Both the position numbers and the translations under genes were made by a program. Shown here piece after piece: positions 17,107-45,822 of a stretch of 64,000 nt of DNA. This DNA comes from an uncultured bacterium (GTDB lineage Bacteria; Verrucomicrobiota; Lentisphaeria; Victivallales; UBA1829). Each line of letters opens with the position of its first letter. Within the stretch, counting starts at the first letter, position 1. The notes below the pieces were generated by a model. It made no database searches, was not told where the DNA came from, and was given only the letters and a program-made list of their open reading frames with translations. The DNA lies in contig CASFTV010000002.1 of the NCBI GenBank assembly GCA_949297765.1, positions 124,001-188,000 on the forward strand, read 5' to 3'.

Positions 17107-17132
17107 AAATCCCGTAAAGAGTCAAAAAGAGC

Positions 17133-17258
17133 GATCTTCGGGGCGAGGTGAGTTTCCGGAATATGGAGACGATTCCCGACCGGCGGTAAAAGTCCGCGAG
17201 CCGGAAGGCTGATACGGTGCAAGTCCGTAACCGACAGTAAAGTCTGGAAGGGAGAGGG
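17133..17258 (+). promoter_or_regulatory. FMN riboswitch (RFN element)
   Basis: The conserved RFN blocks occur in order: GATCTTCGGGGCGAGGTGAG, ATTCCCGACCGGCGGTAAAAG, TCCGCGAGCCGG, CGGTGCAAGTCCG, CCGACAGTAAAGTCTGGAAG and a closing GGGAGAG. The element lies directly upstream of ribBA, the expected place. FMN binding should lower expression of the following riboflavin genes. Confidence 0.95.
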
Positions 17259-17297
17259 TCGACCGCAATGCTGTCTGATTGAAATCTGGCTGATGCG

Positions 17298-29171: not shown

Positions 29172-31706
29172 ATGAAGACGGGATGGGCGGAAAACGGATC
29201 GTTGCGGGCGCGGTTCTTCGCGTTCTCGCTCCTTCTGGCTCCCGCCGCCGCGTTTTCGTTCGGAGATCTGGCGTATAAGAGCAAACTTTCCGGCGATGAG
29301 GCGTTCACGGCGGGGGATTATCCAGCTGCCGCCGGATTCTACGCGGTCTACGCAAAGGACGCCGCGGGCGCGGAGGACAAGGACGCTCTCCGCGATGCCA
29401 GGGAACGCCGGCTGGACGCCCTCCTGCTCGCCGGAATGACGAAGGAGGCGGAACAGGAGTTCGCGGATTATGAGCTCAAATATCCCGGCGTCAATTCGCT
29501 TTCTCTTTCGATGTGGAAGGCCGATCTCCGGATTCTTCAGGGACGGTACCGGGAGGCGCTGACCATTATCCGCCGGATTCTTCCGGGCATGACCGGAGAC
29601 GATCCCCGCCGGCTCCGGACTCTGGCGGCACTGGCGCGCGCCGAAGAACTGGAGAAAAATTATACCGGCGCTGCCAACGCCTACGGAGAACTGGTCCAGG
29701 CCGCAGGGAAGACTCGGCTGGCTCTTTCCGCGTTTGCCCGGAAAATTTTCTGTCTGGCGAACTCAAACACTCCGCGCGATGCGATGACCGGACTGCTGTC
29801 CGCTCCTTCTCCCGAAACGGAGGCGGAAGCGGAGGTGCTCCGCCTTCTCGCGTTTTATACGCATTTGAAAATGGAGGGCGCGAAGGATTTGAAGGCCGCA
29901 TGGCTGGCGTTGGAAAAACAGGGACGGCGTACGGAACTGCCGATCGTCTATACGCTCTATTCCGCGATTGGTGACGAGGCGGCAAGACGTCAGGACCGTG
30001 AACTTGCGGTGGCCGCCTACCGGCTCGCATTCGCCTCCGCACCGACCAAGCAGGCATCGTTCGACACTCTGGGCCGGATCATTCTCCTGCTGGAGCAGCA
30101 GAAGAGCAACGAGGAGGCGGCTCTGCTCGCCCTGCGGGCACTGGATCTTTTCAAGGGATCGTATGCCACGCCGGAAACCAAACTGCGTCTGGCGCGGATT
30201 CTGCGTTCCGCCGGGAAGAACCTTCCGGCCATTGAACTTTATCTGAGTCTGATTCAGGAGGAAGGCGCGCCGCATGAACTGCGGAAAACGGCGGTCCGCG
30301 AATGTGCGTATCTTCAGAATTCGATGAACGACGAGGCCGGCGCCCAGAAAACAATCCGATCCTTCTTCAACACCGATGCCATGCAGCCCGAAGCGGAGTT
30401 TCTCCTTGCCGATCTCCTGTTCCGCGACAAACGGTATCAGGAGGCCGCGGAAGCGTTTCAGGAGACCGCCGCCAAATATCCCTCCATTGCCGGTCAGGCA
30501 CTTTATCAGAGCGCTCTTGCGTGGCTTTCCGCAGAGAAGACCGGTCCTGCGGAGCAGCAGGTGGACCGGCTTCTGAAAATGGTCGGGAACGATCCTGCGG
30601 CGTATTCCCGTGCATTGTACCTGAAAGCGATGATTCTGGAGGCCGCGCGGAAATTCCCCGAGGCGCAGAAATGCTATACGGATTACGCCGCCCGGAAACT
30701 GGTGGACCCGAAACTCGCCGCTCAGGCGCTGTTCAAAGCGGCAAAGATAGCGTTTTCCCGAAAAAATCTGCTGGAGGCGGAAGGGCTGTTCGGACGTATT
30801 CTGAACGACTATCCGCAGAGTGAACTTGCGCCGCTGGCAGCGTACTGGCGGATCTATTCGTTCCAGTCCCGGGGGGATGATCTTCTTGCGGAACGGGAAA
30901 CGTGGCTTCTGGTGGACCGCTATCCCGGTTCTCGTCATGCGACCGACGCACTGTTCAATCTGGCGACCCATTATGCGGATGCCGGCGCCTCAACGCGGGC
31001 CAACGCCGTGCTGGATACGCTGCTGAACCGGGTCAAATCCACGAAACTGTATCCGAAAGTTCTTCTGGAGAAGGCGAATCTCGCCTTTCAAAACAAGGAT
31101 CCGGAAACCGCACTGGAACTGCTGGGGCAATTATACAATACCAATCCCGATTCTTCGCTTCTTGCGGAGGCGTTGTATCTCCACGGAGATGTGCTGAAGT
31201 CGAAAAGCGAGTATGAGCAGGCGATCGCCTGTTATACGAAGGTTCTGGAACAGCACCCGCCATCGCTGATCGAACTGGCGACGATCGGGTCAATCGCGGA
31301 CTGCCAGTTCACCATCGCATCGCAGCGGAATTCCGCGGAACTTTTCCGGGATGCGATGAGGCGCTATGATTCGCTCCTCGAAAGAGTGGATCTTCCGGAA
31401 GCTTTGCGGGTCATGCTGCATTACAAGAGCGGCCGCTGCGCGGAAGAGCTGGATCTGACCGACACCGCGTTGAATCACTACAAGGCCGCCACCTATGCGC
31501 TGGTTTCGAAAGCCTCGTCGAGCGTGGCTCTGTGGGGGACGAAGGCGGTGGAGGCAATCGTGAACATTGCGGAGAAGGCTCCGCTCAAAGCTCATGTGGA
31601 GGATGCGGTGCGCGCCCTTCAGCGCCTTGCCGATGCCGAACTCATGGAGCAGGAAATGGTGGATGAACGGATCCTGAAACTTGAAAAAATGAAATTCAAA
31701 CCGTAA
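29172..31706 (+). CDS. Exported tetratricopeptide-repeat protein
   Basis: An 844-residue protein with a signal peptide (FFAFSLLLAPAAAFSFG) followed almost entirely by TPR-type helix pairs, for example GDYPAAAGFYAVYAKDA, GRYREALTIIRRILPG, KRYQEAAEAFQETAAKYP, NLLEAEGLFGRILNDYPQSE and SEYEQAIACYTKVLEQHPPS. No enzyme motif is seen. The periplasmic location and position before an ExbB/ExbD pair suggest a scaffold or YbgF/CpoB-like coordinator of a TonB- or Tol-type energy-transducing system. The start codon has only a weak ribosome site and lies 19 bases after the recA stop. The large size, about three times CpoB, is unusual. Confidence 0.82.
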   Translation: MKTGWAENGSLRARFFAFSLLLAPAAAFSFGDLAYKSKLSGDEAFTAGDYPAAAGFYAVYAKDAAGAEDKDALRDARERRLDALLLAGMTKEAEQEFADYELKYPGVNSLSLSMWKADLRILQGRYREALTIIRRILPGMTGDDPRRLRTLAALARAEELEKNYTGAANAYGELVQAAGKTRLALSAFARKIFCLANSNTPRDAMTGLLSAPSPETEAEAEVLRLLAFYTHLKMEGAKDLKAAWLALEKQGRRTELPIVYTLYSAIGDEAARRQDRELAVAAYRLAFASAPTKQASFDTLGRIILLLEQQKSNEEAALLALRALDLFKGSYATPETKLRLARILRSAGKNLPAIELYLSLIQEEGAPHELRKTAVRECAYLQNSMNDEAGAQKTIRSFFNTDAMQPEAEFLLADLLFRDKRYQEAAEAFQETAAKYPSIAGQALYQSALAWLSAEKTGPAEQQVDRLLKMVGNDPAAYSRALYLKAMILEAARKFPEAQKCYTDYAARKLVDPKLAAQALFKAAKIAFSRKNLLEAEGLFGRILNDYPQSELAPLAAYWRIYSFQSRGDDLLAERETWLLVDRYPGSRHATDALFNLATHYADAGASTRANAVLDTLLNRVKSTKLYPKVLLEKANLAFQNKDPETALELLGQLYNTNPDSSLLAEALYLHGDVLKSKSEYEQAIACYTKVLEQHPPSLIELATIGSIADCQFTIASQRNSAELFRDAMRRYDSLLERVDLPEALRVMLHYKSGRCAEELDLTDTALNHYKAATYALVSKASSSVALWGTKAVEAIVNIAEKAPLKAHVEDAVRALQRLADAELMEQEMVDERILKLEKMKFKP

Positions 31707-31722
31707 CACAGGGGTGCGAAGG

Positions 31723-32355
31723 ATGGAATATGTGCAGATGATTAAAAACGGCGGTCCGGTCATGATGATTCTGGTCGGATGCAGTATTGTGGCGGTTTTT
31801 ATTTTTGTGGAGAAATGGTTTCAGTTCCACCGGTCGCAGGTGAACGTGAAGGAGCTGGTGAACGGACTGATCAACGTTCTCAAACGGGACGGAATGATCG
31901 AGGCGATCACCCTCTGCGACCATACCCCCGGACCTGTGGCGCGGCTGCTCACGGCGGCGATTCAGGCGCATCAGAACGACGATGACATCCGCCAGTCGAT
32001 CGAGGATGCTTCGATTGTGGAAGTGCCGCGTCTGGAGTCGCACCTGAACATTCTGGCGACCATCGCTTACATTGCGCCTCTGCTCGGACTGCTCGGAACG
32101 GTGGTCGGAATGGCGGATGCGTTTCAGGCGATCGAGACCAAGCAGGGGATTTCGATGACGCTTGCCGATCTTTCCGGCGGCATCTATCTTGCGCTTGCAA
32201 CCGCGGCGGCCGGACTCTGTGTGGCAATTCCGTGTTATGTGGCGTACAATTATCTGGTTTCCCGCGTCCAGTCGCTCTGCGTTGATATGGAAAAGGCGTC
32301 GTCGGAAATTCTCTACTTCTTTCAGCATCATACGAAAAGCGATTTGAAGAAATGA
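31723..32355 (+). CDS. ExbB/TolQ-family proton channel
   Basis: A 210-residue membrane protein with three helices. GGPVMMILVGCSIVAVFIFVEKWFQFHRSQ is near the N-terminus, then a cytoplasmic loop, then the signature LNILATIAYIAPLLGLLGTVVGMADAF and ISMTLADLSGGIYLALATAAAGLCVAIPCYVAYNYL. The conserved Thr and Pro/Gly positions of the channel are there. With ExbD it uses proton flow to move a TonB- or TolA-like partner. ATG 31723 preceded by GAAGG is preferred over an in-frame GTG at 31714. The stop overlaps the exbD start as ATGA. TolQ versus ExbB cannot be decided from sequence alone. Confidence 0.92.
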   Translation: MEYVQMIKNGGPVMMILVGCSIVAVFIFVEKWFQFHRSQVNVKELVNGLINVLKRDGMIEAITLCDHTPGPVARLLTAAIQAHQNDDDIRQSIEDASIVEVPRLESHLNILATIAYIAPLLGLLGTVVGMADAFQAIETKQGISMTLADLSGGIYLALATAAAGLCVAIPCYVAYNYLVSRVQSLCVDMEKASSEILYFFQHHTKSDLKK

Positions 32356-32819
32356 AACAGTTCGGCAATCGGATCAGAATTCAGACCCGTCTGAAAATTT
32401 TTCAGGGACGTCCCGATCTTGTCCCGTTTCTCGGGGTGTTTTTTCTCCTGCTGATCTTTTTCATGCTGGGCAGTTCGTTCATTCAGGTGTCGGGGATCCC
32501 AGTGGATCTCCCGGAGGTGCAGGTGCGCAACAGTTTCGGAGCCAAAAAGATCATCGTCACGGTGGACAAGCGCGGACGGATCTTTCTGAATGATATGGAA
32601 ATCAAGGAGATGGGCGCATTGAAGACCCGCCTTCTGGACATTGTCAACACCTCGGCGGAGGACCGCACCACGATCATCCTCCGCGCCGACGCCGCAACGG
32701 ATTACGGGACGGTCGCACGGATCATGTCCCTCGCGGAGGATCTGAAGATCAATGTATTCCTGCTGACGACCTCACCCGCCGCGCCGCGGAACTCCGTCAA
32801 CTATATCGAACAGGAATGA
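32352..32819 (+). CDS. ExbD/TolR-family protein
   Basis: A 155-residue single-span protein. After the cytoplasmic N-terminus comes the helix DLVPFLGVFFLLLIFFMLGSSF. The Asp at its start (PDLVPFLGV) is in the position of the essential proton-binding Asp. The periplasmic part has KKIIVTVDKRGRIFLNDMEI and IILRADAATDYGTVARIM, the normal ExbD beta-alpha fold. It pairs with the ExbB-like gene just upstream (four-base overlap) and precedes the TonB-like gene by 12 bases. Confidence 0.92.
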   Translation: MKQFGNRIRIQTRLKIFQGRPDLVPFLGVFFLLLIFFMLGSSFIQVSGIPVDLPEVQVRNSFGAKKIIVTVDKRGRIFLNDMEIKEMGALKTRLLDIVNTSAEDRTTIILRADAATDYGTVARIMSLAEDLKINVFLLTTSPAAPRNSVNYIEQE

Positions 32820-33641: not shown

Positions 33642-33883
33642 TTCCTCTTCCGCTCGGAGATCTGTTTTCCCTGTATCTTTCCCTGTTCATCATCACGCTT
33701 GCCTATCTGTGGTTTCGCGATGAGCGGCGCCGCGCGCCGGACGACTGGACAATTGCAAAGGAACGTCTTTACATCTGTCCGCGCTGTCATCTTTCGTTTC
33801 TGGCGAAGGACGACAGCGCGAACATCACCCGCTGTCCGCGCTGCAACGAGATGTGTTTCCTGAAGAAAAAGAAGCGCTTTTGA
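33638..33883 (+). CDS. Small membrane protein with C-terminal zinc ribbon
   Basis: An 81-residue protein: one N-terminal hydrophobic helix (LGDLFSLYLSLFIITLAYLWF), a basic joint (RDERRRAP), then a four-Cys ribbon (CPRCHLSF...CPRCNEMC) and a basic end KKKKRF. Start 33638 overlaps the TonB-like stop as ATGA. Function unknown. The last codons are part of the terminator stem at 33865-33896, so its C-terminus is shaped by that RNA element. It is the final gene of the TPR/ExbB/ExbD/TonB-like operon. Confidence 0.78.
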   Translation: MIPLPLGDLFSLYLSLFIITLAYLWFRDERRRAPDDWTIAKERLYICPRCHLSFLAKDDSANITRCPRCNEMCFLKKKKRF

Positions 33884-33918: not shown

Positions 33919-35802
33919 TCACCGTTCCGGATCAAGTCCGAACTGACGGTATCCGTAGGTGTTGAAGGTGCTGTTTCCGCTGGATTCAACACTTTCCCTG
34001 ACCGAGATGATATCTCCCTGAATGTCTTTCGGAACGGGAGTCGCCGGGGTGAGCAGCTCGCATTCCGCGACAATCACAAGACGGGAATTTTTTGTGGACT
34101 CGCTTTCTGTCGAGAACAGCCATCCGATCAGCGGAAGATCCTTCAGAAGCGGAACGCCGGTCGAAGAACGGACAAGTTCGCTTTTCGTGATGCCGCCGAT
34201 GACGAAACGGTTCGCGTGTTCATTCCCGATCATGATCTGGTTTTCCGAGACGCTGCTGTTCAGACGGGGTGTGCCGCTGGAGGCATATCCGAGAAGCGAG
34301 GTCGCTTCAACGCCGACCTGCAGCGTGGTGGCTTTCTCCGTGACCGAGGGAACTACCGAGAGACGGAAGGAAAAACCGTTGGCGACGACGGTGTTGACCG
34401 TCGGTCCTCTTCCGGGATCGGCCGGAACGTTCGTGTGGAAGGTGATGGAGGAATCGTCCTTGATCAGGGCTCCTTCAACGGTTTTGCATGTTCCGCTGTC
34501 ACCTTCCACGGTGAAGACGGTTCCGTTGACCCCCTGCAGGTCATAGTTTTTGGTGGAGGGAGTCTGAATTTTCACGACGGCGAACGGCCCGCTTGCCGTG
34601 ACCTTGTATCCGTTCTTGTCCGTGATGGAGAGCTGGGAGGGATCTTTGACGTAGCCGGAGGAGATCGTGGTCGCGGCGCCTTCGTTTTCCTGTGCGTCGA
34701 CAACGAAGAGTCCGGTGTCGCGGCGGATCACGGTTTCCTGATTGTTCCGTGCGCGCAGTTCGCCGGTCACGGCGATTTTCGCCTTGCTTTTGGAGACCAG
34801 GAAGTCAAGATAGCGCGTGTTCCATTTCGGATTGAAGTTGATGAACTGGGCGTTGTTGGTTTTCCCGTTCCGGAGCATGCCGCCGGCGTAGGTCGATGAC
34901 CAGTTGTCGCGATAGGTTCCTCCCATGGAGAAGAAATTGGCGCCTTCGTTGTTTTTCCATGCCTGGAAGTCGGCACCGATTTTCCCGTCGTTTTCCGCGT
35001 TCAGTTCGTAGACGGTGTAACGGATGCGGACCTGCGGATGCGGAACGTCATAAAGTTTCAGCATGGCTTCAATATTTTTTCGTGAATAGAGGGCGGTGTT
35101 GAAGAAGAGGACATTCAAGTCGCTGTCTTCGCGGACCTTGTCTTTTCCTCCGATCAGCTCCACGGTGTCGTTGGAGAGATTGGCGCCGACCGCTTCGACC
35201 ATCGTTTTCAGTTCGGAGGCCGGACGGTTTTTCGGAAAGTAGACGTATTTCGGCTGACCCGAGGAGTTTTTGATTCCTTTTGCGTCCAGTTTTTCCACGA
35301 CGGAGTCGATGCCCATTCCGTTTGTGCTGTCCCGGAAGCGGTACTCCTCCGCCGAGATGATGAGCAGTGCGGTGCCGTCCATGAAGACCATGCATTCCAC
35401 GCCCGCCGGCGCACGGAGATACTGATTGTAGTAATGGGAAAGCGGAATCGGCGAAGAGGTCGTCATGAAATTGACCGGATTGGCGGAAACGGCTTTGTTT
35501 GCACTTCCGTTGAACACGCCCGGATTCGTGCGCATTGTCTGAACCATATTCCGGAGATAGGGACGGATCTCATAGGGATTGGCATGTTTCAAGACATAGG
35601 TCTTTGTGATGATTTTCGAATCGGAGGTGTCCCGGACGAAGTGGACTGCCTCCGTTCCCGGCGCAATGCCGACCTGAAGCTGCGCCTGAACATTGGACGG
35701 AAAATAGGCCGGATTCAGATTCCCGGTCGGCAGCTCGTTTGCCGACGCTCCCGCGGCGGTGCAGACCGCTCCGAAAATCAGCGTTTTCATGCTTCTGTTC
35801 AT
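33919..35802 (-). CDS. Secretin-domain outer-membrane protein (GspD/PilQ-like), paralogue A
   Basis: A 627-residue exported protein (signal peptide TLIFGAVCTAAGASA). An early N-domain contains ITKTYVLKHANPYEIRPYLRNM, and AMLKLYDVPHPQVRIRYTVYELNA marks the start of the secretin core. The C-terminal part shows GNEHANRFVIGGITKSE, then GVPLLKDLPLIGWLFSTES and SRLVIVAECELL, the classic secretin signature order. It should form an outer-membrane ring. The ribosome site is AAGGAAG 9 bases before ATG 35802. It follows paralogue B by 18 bases. No GspC, E, F, L or M gene is adjacent, so its partners, possibly the pseudopilins at 8.5-14.2 kb, are separate. Confidence 0.85.
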   Translation of the reverse strand: MNRSMKTLIFGAVCTAAGASANELPTGNLNPAYFPSNVQAQLQVGIAPGTEAVHFVRDTSDSKIITKTYVLKHANPYEIRPYLRNMVQTMRTNPGVFNGSANKAVSANPVNFMTTSSPIPLSHYYNQYLRAPAGVECMVFMDGTALLIISAEEYRFRDSTNGMGIDSVVEKLDAKGIKNSSGQPKYVYFPKNRPASELKTMVEAVGANLSNDTVELIGGKDKVREDSDLNVLFFNTALYSRKNIEAMLKLYDVPHPQVRIRYTVYELNAENDGKIGADFQAWKNNEGANFFSMGGTYRDNWSSTYAGGMLRNGKTNNAQFINFNPKWNTRYLDFLVSKSKAKIAVTGELRARNNQETVIRRDTGLFVVDAQENEGAATTISSGYVKDPSQLSITDKNGYKVTASGPFAVVKIQTPSTKNYDLQGVNGTVFTVEGDSGTCKTVEGALIKDDSSITFHTNVPADPGRGPTVNTVVANGFSFRLSVVPSVTEKATTLQVGVEATSLLGYASSGTPRLNSSVSENQIMIGNEHANRFVIGGITKSELVRSSTGVPLLKDLPLIGWLFSTESESTKNSRLVIVAECELLTPATPVPKDIQGDIISVRESVESSGNSTFNTYGYRQFGLDPER

Positions 35803-35820
35803 ACGAATGAGCTTCCTTTC

Positions 35821-37344
35821 TTACTTTTCATTTGCAACGAGTTCCGTGATTTCGGTCAGTTTTCCGGAAATCGCGGAGATGTCGGAATCGGGATGGACGA
35901 AATGGGCTTCGGCGGTCAGGAAGAAATGCGTGGTTTCCGCATTCCGGGTTGTGGTGCCGAAGATGTATTTCAGAATCGGAAGTTCGCAGAGGAACGGAAC
36001 GCCGATCGTCTGCTCCACATCCATTCGCCGGGACCAGGAGGCCAGAAGCGATTCCTGCTTCATGCGGATGGTTCCGAATCCCTGCAGCGTCGAGGTTTCC
36101 GTCAGTTCATTGCCGTAGTTGTTGCGCTCGGTGACGCTGGTGTTGGCAAGTTCATACTGAAAATCGAAGATCCCGGAAAACTTCTTTTCGTAATCTTCCG
36201 CGGAGCAGGGGAGAAGTCCGTTTTTATCGTGCTTCACATCATTGAAGCAGATCGTCGGCGAACTGATGTTCAGAGTCAGATTCGCGGCGGTGGAGGGGTC
36301 CACATAGGTTTTGTCGTTCTCCTTTTTGAGGATGTTCTGATAATCCGGCGTCAGCGAGGTCGATGCGCTCTTCCCGTTGCGGAGCGTGAGGCTGACCTCG
36401 GAAAGCTGACGCGCTCTGCCGTTCTGCTGGAGAAGACGGAGAAAGCTCATGTCAAATGCCGGAGCAAAAAACAGGGAACCGTATCCCCAGCTCATGCTGT
36501 CGGAGATGAACGGCATCAGTTTGTTTGCCACTTCCGCAACCTGAACGGTTTCGTTCCAGCGTCCGGCGAACAGATCGGCGCCGAATCCGGCAATCTGAAG
36601 ACCGGGCCCGTTCTTCCAGGCGGCATAGTCGATGCCGATGTCCCGGAGATCGCTGTCCCGGATCTCGTACAGTCGGAAGGAGACGATCACCTGCGGAACC
36701 GGACGGTCCAGCCAGGCAAGATATTTCAAAAGATCGCTGCTCTTGTTCGCGGAATCCTTCCAGTAGATCAGGTTGGAGGCCGAATCGTAAAGCACGCGGG
36801 CGTCATATTTCCCGGCGGAGGTGTCTTCCGTATCCGCGGAGTAGTTGTACCCGGAGGCGTCGGCCGGGATGCCCGCTTTGATCATCAGCGTGACCATCTC
36901 CTGCGAAGAACGCCATTTCGGATTGTAGACATACCGGGTGATGCCGGTTCCCCGGACAATCGAACCGTTGATGTCTTTGATTCTGCTCGGCCGGTCCATT
37001 TTGGCGACCATGTCGTCCACATACGGCATCATTGCCACAGGAGTCGTGACTGCGATCCACTGCTGCTTTGCCGCGGAATAATTGATCCGGTCCACTTTTG
37101 AATTCGTCGAATAGCGCATGACCGCGCCGAGAACAAACGGAACAATGTCGTTTGCCTTGATGTGCTTGAGAGAGTAGACTTTGGTGACCATGTAATCCTG
37201 TGCATCATCCTCGATGAAACGGATTCTTCTGGTCTTTTCGGGCGCGGCTCCCGCCGCCTGACTCGCAGGATCGAAGGCTTCCACGGAGCCGACCGCTCCG
37301 AGAAACGCCGCAGCAAATCCCGCCGTCTTCCATGCTTTGTTCAT
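35821..37344 (-). CDS. Secretin-like protein, paralogue B (shorter and more divergent)
   Basis: A 507-residue exported protein (signal KTAGFAAAFLGAVGSVEA) colinear with paralogue A: VTKVYSLKHIKANDIVPFVLGAV matches the A N-domain; VPQVIVSFRLYEIRDSD...DIGIDYAAWKNG matches A's PQVRIRYTVYELNAEND...KIGADFQAWKNN; and GVPFLCELPILKYIFG occupies the secretin loop. The strand before that loop lacks the usual IGG motif seen in A. The pair may form a mixed ring, or B may be an accessory. It is the first gene of a two-gene operon behind a long leader with a hairpin at 37366-37397. Confidence 0.75.
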   Translation of the reverse strand: MNKAWKTAGFAAAFLGAVGSVEAFDPASQAAGAAPEKTRRIRFIEDDAQDYMVTKVYSLKHIKANDIVPFVLGAVMRYSTNSKVDRINYSAAKQQWIAVTTPVAMMPYVDDMVAKMDRPSRIKDINGSIVRGTGITRYVYNPKWRSSQEMVTLMIKAGIPADASGYNYSADTEDTSAGKYDARVLYDSASNLIYWKDSANKSSDLLKYLAWLDRPVPQVIVSFRLYEIRDSDLRDIGIDYAAWKNGPGLQIAGFGADLFAGRWNETVQVAEVANKLMPFISDSMSWGYGSLFFAPAFDMSFLRLLQQNGRARQLSEVSLTLRNGKSASTSLTPDYQNILKKENDKTYVDPSTAANLTLNISSPTICFNDVKHDKNGLLPCSAEDYEKKFSGIFDFQYELANTSVTERNNYGNELTETSTLQGFGTIRMKQESLLASWSRRMDVEQTIGVPFLCELPILKYIFGTTTRNAETTHFFLTAEAHFVHPDSDISAISGKLTEITELVANEK

Positions 37345-37365
37345 ACAAACTCCTTGTTCGTGTTG

Positions 37366-37397
37366 AAGCAGGGTCCCCGCGGGGCTTCTCCCTGCTT
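37366..37397 (-). promoter_or_regulatory. 5'-leader hairpin of the secretin operon
   Basis: On the minus strand AAGCAGGG and CCCTGCTT form an 8-bp stem enclosing the self-complementary CCCCGCGGGG, 21 bases before the start codon of paralogue B. There is no T run after it, so it may affect translation or mRNA stability rather than terminate. I found no convincing promoter upstream. Confidence 0.5.
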
Positions 37398-37510
37398 TCC
37401 CGATACTGTACAGGCGGAGTTTTGATCCTTTGTGCGCCGAATGTTCGATTTCCGTTAAACCGCAGATCCGTGGACGGTGGGTTGAAACAAGAGATCCCGC
37501 GGCGGAAAAT

Positions 37511-37552
37511 GAAAAGGCCCGCCGGAATCCCAGAGGATTTTCCGGCGGGCCT
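37511..37552 (-). terminator. Intrinsic terminator of the sialate O-acetylesterase gene
   Basis: On the minus strand a 13-bp stem, AGGCCCGCCGGAA with TTCCGGCGGGCCT, is followed by TTTTCATTTT. It lies 22 bases after the stop codon. Confidence 0.9.
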
Positions 37553-37573
37553 GAAGAACGGATGCGGAAGAAC

Positions 37574-45443: not shown

Positions 45444-45485
45444 TCGTTCCTTCTCCGCTCCGCTGTAAGAGGTTCGTAAAAAGTC

Positions 45486-45822
45486 AGGGATGCGGCATAA
45501 GCCGGATTCTGTTCCCTTGCGGGTGGCGATCATCTGTCTCTGCGGCCAGAACCCGGAATTCAAACGCCGCGGGCCGCGGCTCATTCCCTATTTGGCCTTG
45601 CTCCGGGAGGGGCTTGCACTGCCGGCTCAATTACTTGAAACCGCGGCGGGCTCTTACCCCGCCTTTTCACCCTTGCCGGATTGCTCCGGCGGTTTGTTTT
45701 CTGCTGCGCTTTCCTTCCCATGGAATCTGGTCCATGGCATCCTTATTTTATAAAGGACTCCTTGCCCTGTGGGGTCCGGACTTTCCTCTCCGTTTGCACG
45801 GAGCGACCGCCGCCGCATCCCT
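45486..45822 (-). ncRNA. rnpB: RNase P RNA (class A)
   Basis: On the minus strand the ends AGGGATGCGGC (5') and GCCGCATCCCT (3') form the P1 helix. The conserved core blocks appear in order: GAGAGGAAAGTCCGGAC near the 5' end, then a segment with GTAAGAGCCCGCCGCGG, GGAGCAAGGCCAAATAGGG, and near the 3' end GGAACAGAATCCGGCTTATG. The length of about 337 nt is normal for class A. It processes the 5' ends of tRNAs together with RnpA, which is not in the window. The exact ends are set by the P1 pairing only. A T5 run follows P1 on the minus strand. Confidence 0.95.

Follow-up and report, generated by a model that had tools for sequence, protein, structure and literature searches.

Known secretins are homo-oligomers, and a locus that encodes two unequal secretins side by side raises the question of what the pair does in the cell. 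The pair described here is located in a stretch of 64,000 nucleotides (hereafter the window; contig CASFTV010000002.1) from an uncultured bacterium of the order Victivallales. The source assembly consists of 92 contigs (4.2 Mb), and the genomes closest to it in the public set are metagenome-assembled genomes of the Victivallales/Lentisphaeria. The promoter-proximal gene is called B and the second gene A (Table 1). That these two co-inherited secretin-fold subunits together form an outer-membrane channel for small solutes, and not a pore for protein secretion, is in our judgement just about probable. The observations behind this view are homology, fold prediction, fixed pairing, distribution, neighbouring genes, control motifs and the absence of receptors; from them we infer an outer-membrane ring, its mixed composition, the passage of solutes and the ligand.

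Two unequal secretins in tandem, belonging to one operon, had been proposed in the initial annotation, and this is what is found: both genes are open frames that match PF00263 at exactly the positions given in Table 1, B is located upstream of A and the gap between them is 18 bp. By eye, both proteins have a signal-peptide-like N terminus. A matches the Secretin family with 67.1 bits (residues 445-582) and B with 27.9 bits (residues 408-477), which barely passes the cut-off of 27.5; Pfam reports only secretin families in the two window proteins, and no porin or TonB-receptor domain. The colinearity of A and B, also proposed before, is evident from a comparison of profiles built from alignments of 70 A relatives and 70 B relatives (E = 8e-46, probability 100, 19% identity, colinear over most of the length), and in profile searches both profiles match solved secretins. 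AlphaFold gave models of moderate confidence for A (mean predicted local distance difference test, pLDDT, 73; predicted template-modelling score, pTM, 0.49) and for B (77.5 and 0.62), and in Foldseek searches, in which GspD, SctC, PilQ and pIV were matched, the best secretin hits were 5.7e-15 for A and 1.4e-20 for B. Because the global template-modelling scores of full-length secretin matches are low (0.12-0.38 by query length), the membership of A and B in this fold rests on alignments and E-values.

The idea that only A carries the full C-terminal signature is not supported. The secretin core of B is predicted to be complete (strands 390-407, 413-427, 431-448 and 463-483; motif VPFLCELPILKYIFG), the protein passes PF00263 and it has the Foldseek match mentioned above; long C-terminal barrel strands are predicted in A as well as in B. 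What the model of A alone suggests is a long helix after the barrel (residues 592-610), at the place of the S-domain. Across 70 diverse B sequences 19 columns are invariant. Both proteins are far under the NCBIfam cut-offs for GspD, PilQ, MshL and SctC, the best values being 67 bits for A (cut-off 351, GspD) and 34 bits for B (cut-off 284, PilQ); neither Pfam nor NCBIfam has a family of its own for the pair, and generic secretin models alone match. An N0-type domain is reported neither in A and B (E up to 1) nor in the Pil-type and Tad-type secretins of the same genome; the genome's own GspD has one. An open frame of 555 amino acids runs antisense to the pair (35434-37101, +), and 29 long frames of this type from 21 related loci clustered in a first gene call, those that were mapped overlying A or B. 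They are probably a by-product of codon usage.

Table 1 Features of the window discussed in the text
Feature	Position	Strand	Basis
B, promoter-proximal gene, secretin family, 507 amino acids	35821-37344	-	open frame, PF00263, profile and fold matches
A, second gene, secretin with (predicted) C-terminal helix and tail, 627 amino acids	33919-35802	-	open frame, PF00263, profile and fold matches
Intergenic region with the promoter of the pair; opens with an inverted repeat and T run after the upstream esterase gene	37345-37573	-	sequence by eye
Pho-box-like site upstream of B, three units, 11-bp period (TTAACG-N5-CGAACA-N5-CGCACA)	37431-37458	-	unit matrix
ExbB and ExbD genes, convergent to the pair	31714-32355, 32352-32819	+	Pfam

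A pairing that is fixed across genomes, which the initial annotation had raised as a point worth checking, is indeed found. Loci (L numbers) were fetched separately by A and by B, some of them twice; G numbers denote genomes, G000 being that of the window. In this first set, 138 of 141 distinct B genes have A next on the same strand, and the three others (L188, L219, L232) are at contig ends. A stricter automatic gene call gave 127 direct pairs out of 137, a difference explained by overlaps between called starts, by split frames and by contig ends. A second set came from other families within the order, with some overlap with the first; here 50 of 51 B genes were paired and the exception was again at a contig end. 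For 131 full pairs the distances in the A tree and in the B tree are correlated with r = 0.96, shared species history included, and 500 permutations gave at most 0.05. All 36 genomes of the family have matches to both A and B, many of them at several places. The one-to-one order and the parallel evolution favour a physical partnership of some kind between A and B, and are not decisive for a mixed ring. In one contig that was fetched twice (L117:8001-9761 = L224:10173-11933) the A gene is spread over three consecutive frames, by local decay or by sequencing error.

The distribution of the pair was determined by searching 194 genomes of the phylum with the B profile, with E < 1e-60 taken as a strong match. 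Strong matches were obtained in 47 genomes, every one of them in the order of the window, and the best E-value elsewhere was 5.6e-12. No strong match was found in seven members of the order (G059, G070, G080, G083, G095, G151, G178) or in the 140 genomes outside it; the result list omits 22 matchless genomes, which by list order fall outside the order. The barrel of TonB-dependent receptors (PF00593) is present in 121 of the 194 genomes: 120 of the 140 outside the order, one (G151) of the seven order members without a strong B match, and none of the 47 with strong matches. Porin_O_P occurs in 82 of the 194 genomes, none of them within the order. In the 36 family genomes TonB receptors, Porin_4, OprB and BBP2 were each found in none, the control for the BBP2 search being weak (1 of 14 genomes, under the cut-off), and Omp85 was found in all. 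Apparently, an outer membrane exists in these bacteria without the usual entry proteins tested, and with the secretin family present. The absence of porins refers to the families tested, and other porin families may exist.

The genes beside the pairs differ from subfamily to subfamily. Representatives were checked by Pfam; the names GadB, AspD, PstS, KdpB and urea carboxylase are our own reading. Genes for phosphate uptake recur: pstS, mostly with permease genes, is found beside L071-L074, L236 and L304, the contig of L121 fits pstS only, and PHO4 (PiT) with polyphosphate kinase accompanies L307; the PstS proteins confirmed by Pfam include one of another family. FeoA-FeoB is encoded before or after the pair in L082, L086, L088, L090, L093, L097 and L136/L273, Amt beside L125 (with P-II) and L079, and KdpA-B-C-D beside L306 (KdpA, KdpC and KdpD by Pfam). 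ATP-binding cassette (ABC) systems of the NMT1 type are located beside L150, L158, L281, L283 and others, and one of the amino-acid type (SBP_bac_3) beside L212. A urea-type biotin-dependent carboxylase with allophanate hydrolase is found beside L310 and L311. Finally, there are decarboxylases together with a transporter: a glutamate-type enzyme (Pyridoxal_deC) with an amino acid permease beside L122, L124, L129, L133 and L141, an aspartate-decarboxylase-type enzyme with AspT (Asp-Al_Ex) beside L116, and an Orn/Lys/Arg decarboxylase with a permease beside L203.

In a crude test, a polytopic membrane protein within three operonic genes was seen in 16 of 60 pairs and 6 of 35 control genes (p 0.33), and in a second count in 20 of 81 pairs and 11 of 47 controls (p 0.52). 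A count at the level of clusters was weakly positive (13 of 87 against 20 of 287, p 0.03). This test does not separate the pairs, and therefore the argument from neighbours depends on which systems these are and on how they recur, as judged afterwards: 14 of the 20 polytopic matches beside pairs were counted as solute systems (from the Pfam family of the gene itself or of another gene in its cluster; L281 by eye), and the 11 control matches comprise, by eye, two clear solute transporters, one ABC exporter and one NMT1-type system within the operon of a pair. As this is a post hoc argument, independent evidence from regulation is needed.

Such evidence comes from the control sites upstream of B. 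Relatives of the window pair have a YTRACA-like unit there, present three times at 11-bp spacing. A unit matrix was trained on six sites upstream of B that were picked by eye (one from L072), and was run on 1847 gene upstreams. The top score was obtained by the pstS of L304, which belongs to another family and is outside the training set; the B gene of L304 was 7th and that of the window 22nd, and the pstS of L236 was within the top 45. The score of the window site was reached by 11 of 2000 dinucleotide shuffles, and at periods of 8-10 and 12-14 the site scored at most 0.7. Judged by sequence, the window appears to have the 11-bp repeat of a Pho regulon in a weaker form than its relatives, and its own Pho-box-like site is suggestive, not decisive. 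On a tree built from 168 distinct full pairs, those that score at least 9.5 belong to the window clade or to a Victivallis-type group (L110, L296), or are L075, L077, L102, L105, L121, L215, L304 and L305; the two groups concerned outside the window clade hold other Pst-linked pairs or Victivallis-type pairs, and no such score occurs in the decarboxylase, NMT1, MarR-linked or iron subfamilies. On the uptake view, the window pair is probably a phosphate version.

A different motif, TTAG-N6-CTAA, of the kind expected for DtxR-type iron regulators, is found upstream of 10 of 177 B genes and of 12 of 1675 other genes. It precedes 5 of 14 Feo-labelled B genes and 5 of 163 other B genes; four of the latter (L103, L104, L123, L139) are, like the five Feo-labelled ones, in the iron clade and the fifth (L138) is nearest to it. 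The other genes with this motif include feoA (L273) and a DtxR-type regulator (L120). Controls gave 0 for a spacer of 5, 2 for a spacer of 7 and 0 for the inverted order. In the tree, all 11 pairs with the motif fall into one clade of 27 members (support 1.0), compared to none of the 141 pairs elsewhere. Two subfamilies carry two different putative nutrient signals, each matching its neighbours, and neighbours and control sites together point to nutrient uptake rather than secretion, with few exceptions. Riboswitches were not detected at gathering score in 16 pair loci (one tRNA only) or near the window pair. Seven pairs of the iron clade that have no DtxR-like box near B (L093, L084, L083, L086, L080, L140, L085) have TGGCAY-N5-TTGC, a sigma-54-like pattern, upstream of B, with one further match in L121.

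An entry channel is the simplest way to explain how such a system would operate. The pair would have been multiplied into substrate-dedicated versions, each of them either induced by shortage of its nutrient or transcribed together with the inner-membrane transporter that goes with it. In phosphate-limited cells the 11-bp repeats in front of B would be bound by a PhoB-like regulator, leading to synthesis and export of B and A; the two proteins would then assemble into one or more rings in the outer membrane. Phosphate or phosphorylated solutes would enter the periplasm through the A/B channel, and an inner-membrane system would take over the solute admitted by the pair. In the iron versions, iron shortage would induce the respective pair via its own regulator, and in the decarboxylase-antiporter versions the amino acid may come in, and the product go out, through the same pore.

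Several observations weigh against such an uptake channel or against a phosphate role of the window pair. There is no recognisable transporter beside most pairs, the two comparisons of polytopic neighbours with controls were not significant and the enrichment of solute systems by identity was judged after the fact. No transporter is recognised beside the window pair, and its link to phosphate comes from its relatives and the repeat. With a first Pho matrix, of 28 bp, the window had a poor score of 4.7 (rank 30 of 186), and the unit matrix was tried afterwards; the 21 upstreams that score above that of the window belong to 10 B genes (4 of them training loci), one pstS and 10 other genes. A Pho-like site is missing from the PiT-linked pair L307, the Amt-linked pair L079 is located in the iron clade, and a canonical Fur box gave no signal above background. 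Loss of receptors and presence of the pair coincide in one lineage and are thus not independent events, and six members of the order have neither the pair (strong matches) nor a TonB receptor. Links to secretion machinery also belong here. In L301 (6971-17500) the pair is directly followed by a same-strand cluster for a type II secretion system (T2SS; GspL/PilM-, GspC- and GspE-like genes). PilM is encoded divergently, 2.7-2.9 kb away, in four Victivallis-type loci (L110/L289, L113/L282, L296, L302), accompanied by PilN/PilO where the stretch allows, and 6.4 kb downstream in L092.

The main rival view takes the pairs for regulated export pores: each would be the way out through the outer membrane for a reduced type II-like system, one that secretes enzymes and shares the inner-membrane T2SS or Pil motor of the genome. 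A and B are both true secretin homologues, and the T2SS locus of the genome, with its GspE-type ATPase and pseudopilin-like genes, could be shared. Moreover, the Pho-regulated Hxc system exports phosphatases under phosphate limitation, and Pho-like control fits phosphatase export equally well. In a phmmer search of all pair loci with thirteen genes (T2SS, Pil and Tad) from the window's own genome, however, L301 alone had matches on the same strand within a few genes, and it has a separate frame of 772 amino acids at the GspD position; L093 has a divergent PilT/TadA-like ATPase 1.2 kb away, and the remaining matches are farther away. No operonic pseudopilin was found in the first set of pair loci, and the N0-type domain seen in the genome's GspD is unreported in A and B, as it is in the Pil-type and Tad-type secretins of that genome. 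Three of the other secretin loci of the genome adjoin their own machinery (T2SS; PilM; Tad-like with a T2SSE ATPase). The statement in the initial annotation that no other secretion gene is adjacent holds within the window, where no gene for inner-membrane secretion machinery is found with or near the pair. Pairs are seldom linked to such machinery, yet some are, and this counts toward export. Partners such as FeoAB, KdpABC, Amt and the decarboxylase-antiporter systems need passage of solutes and not export of proteins, and we regard export as unlikely.

A solute channel, or for that matter an export pore, might also be built differently: A and B may form two homo-oligomeric rings, or B may assist assembly or gating of a ring of A, instead of both sharing a mixed ring. 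This variant of how either reading would work is a serious possibility that falls just short of probable. It conforms to the homo-oligomeric nature of known secretins, and the predicted long helix at the S-domain place is confined to A; the fixed order and the parallel evolution argue for a physical partnership of some kind, mixed ring or not. A role in the envelope other than that of a channel, for example as a stress-made scaffold or attachment ring, would suit the several subfamilies that have no transporter neighbour, and it is very unlikely given that separate subfamilies have neighbours and control sites specific to a nutrient. That B is a recent, decaying copy without function, a possibility already considered in the initial annotation, would be in line with its score barely above the Secretin cut-off; since B is intact, widely conserved and co-inherited with A, paired in all testable cases, and has 19 invariant columns and a full predicted fold, this can be dismissed.

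Compared to known systems, the pair resembles the secretins GspD, PilQ, SctC and phage pIV in fold and C-terminal core (best matches 1e-14 to 1e-20), but differs in consisting of fixed unequal paralogues, usually without linked inner-membrane machinery. PhoE and OprP/OprO are unrelated trimeric porins under Pho-type control that let phosphate in elsewhere; the window pair would be their counterpart by analogy in its Pho-type control and in the role expected at limiting phosphate, but is not related to them, and Porin_4 and OprB are absent from the 36 family genomes. SusC-SusD-type systems are paired outer-membrane uptake complexes. They, too, are two-gene units that have been multiplied, with copies dedicated to different substrates and in some cases a lipoprotein, but are not homologous to the pair, and their TonB-receptor barrel is found in none of the family genomes. 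A secretin as entry pore for a small nutrient has a parallel in a gonococcal PilQ mutant that admits heme (Chen et al. 2004, as described in PMC6449446); this is reported to be a point mutant of a pilus secretin, whereas the pairs are a dedicated family.

Among the literature matches listed, no title or beginning of an abstract describes the pair family (subscription papers and preprints were outside the search). We regard the pair as a new form of secretins; if secretins have taken the place of receptors and porins, the system would be of a new kind, the proof of which requires biochemistry. The question on which these pairs bear is how nutrients cross the outer membrane without TonB receptors. 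If the uptake channel is real, secretins serve as regulated, substrate-dedicated entry channels and the textbook role of the superfamily, in export and pili, has to be widened; whether secretin subunits can be unequal is then open to direct testing, and the annotation of such genes as secretion proteins in this order is misleading.

Many pairs have a conserved lipoprotein gene (WKxxFER...LFRxVxG) before B or after A, for example L130:9877-10380 and L122:6022-6561. The first set contains 49 sequences, some fetched twice; all 21 sequences of the alignment share the lipobox cysteine, and the lipoprotein has no Pfam or NCBIfam match. A copy is present in 35 of the 36 family genomes, and 45 of 58 matches are at most 0.8 kb from a match to A or B. 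The window pair has no adjoining lipoprotein, and one copy is found elsewhere in its genome (G000:C21). In some subfamilies the adjoining lipoprotein may target or plug the ring in a pilotin-like manner. Downstream of the window pair and convergent to it is a row of genes for a TPR protein, ExbB and ExbD (29172-32819, +), and in L170 ExbB- and ExbD-like genes are located directly ahead of the pair in one operon; these two cases are too little to claim a link. The row in the window, which continues to position 33883 with genes for an unassigned protein of 269 amino acids and a small cysteine-rich protein, is located in a genome without a detected TonB-dependent receptor.

A far-reaching view is that the whole order has swapped TonB receptors and classical porins for modular hetero-oligomeric secretin channels in phosphate, iron, ammonium, potassium, urea and amino-acid-exchange versions; some of these would have a pilotin-like lipoprotein of their own, and the ExbBD-type genes still present may serve to open the channels. 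We consider this scenario doubtful.

The genome of the window contains a second, different secretin tandem (L243:7739-12963; G000:C24) with proteins of 841 and 900 amino acids and TPR matches. It follows PilM and two more genes of Pil-like type, and brings the number of unequal secretin tandems in this genome to two. Elsewhere in the window are an FMN (flavin mononucleotide) riboswitch (17130-17263, +) and an RNase P RNA (45482-45822, -).

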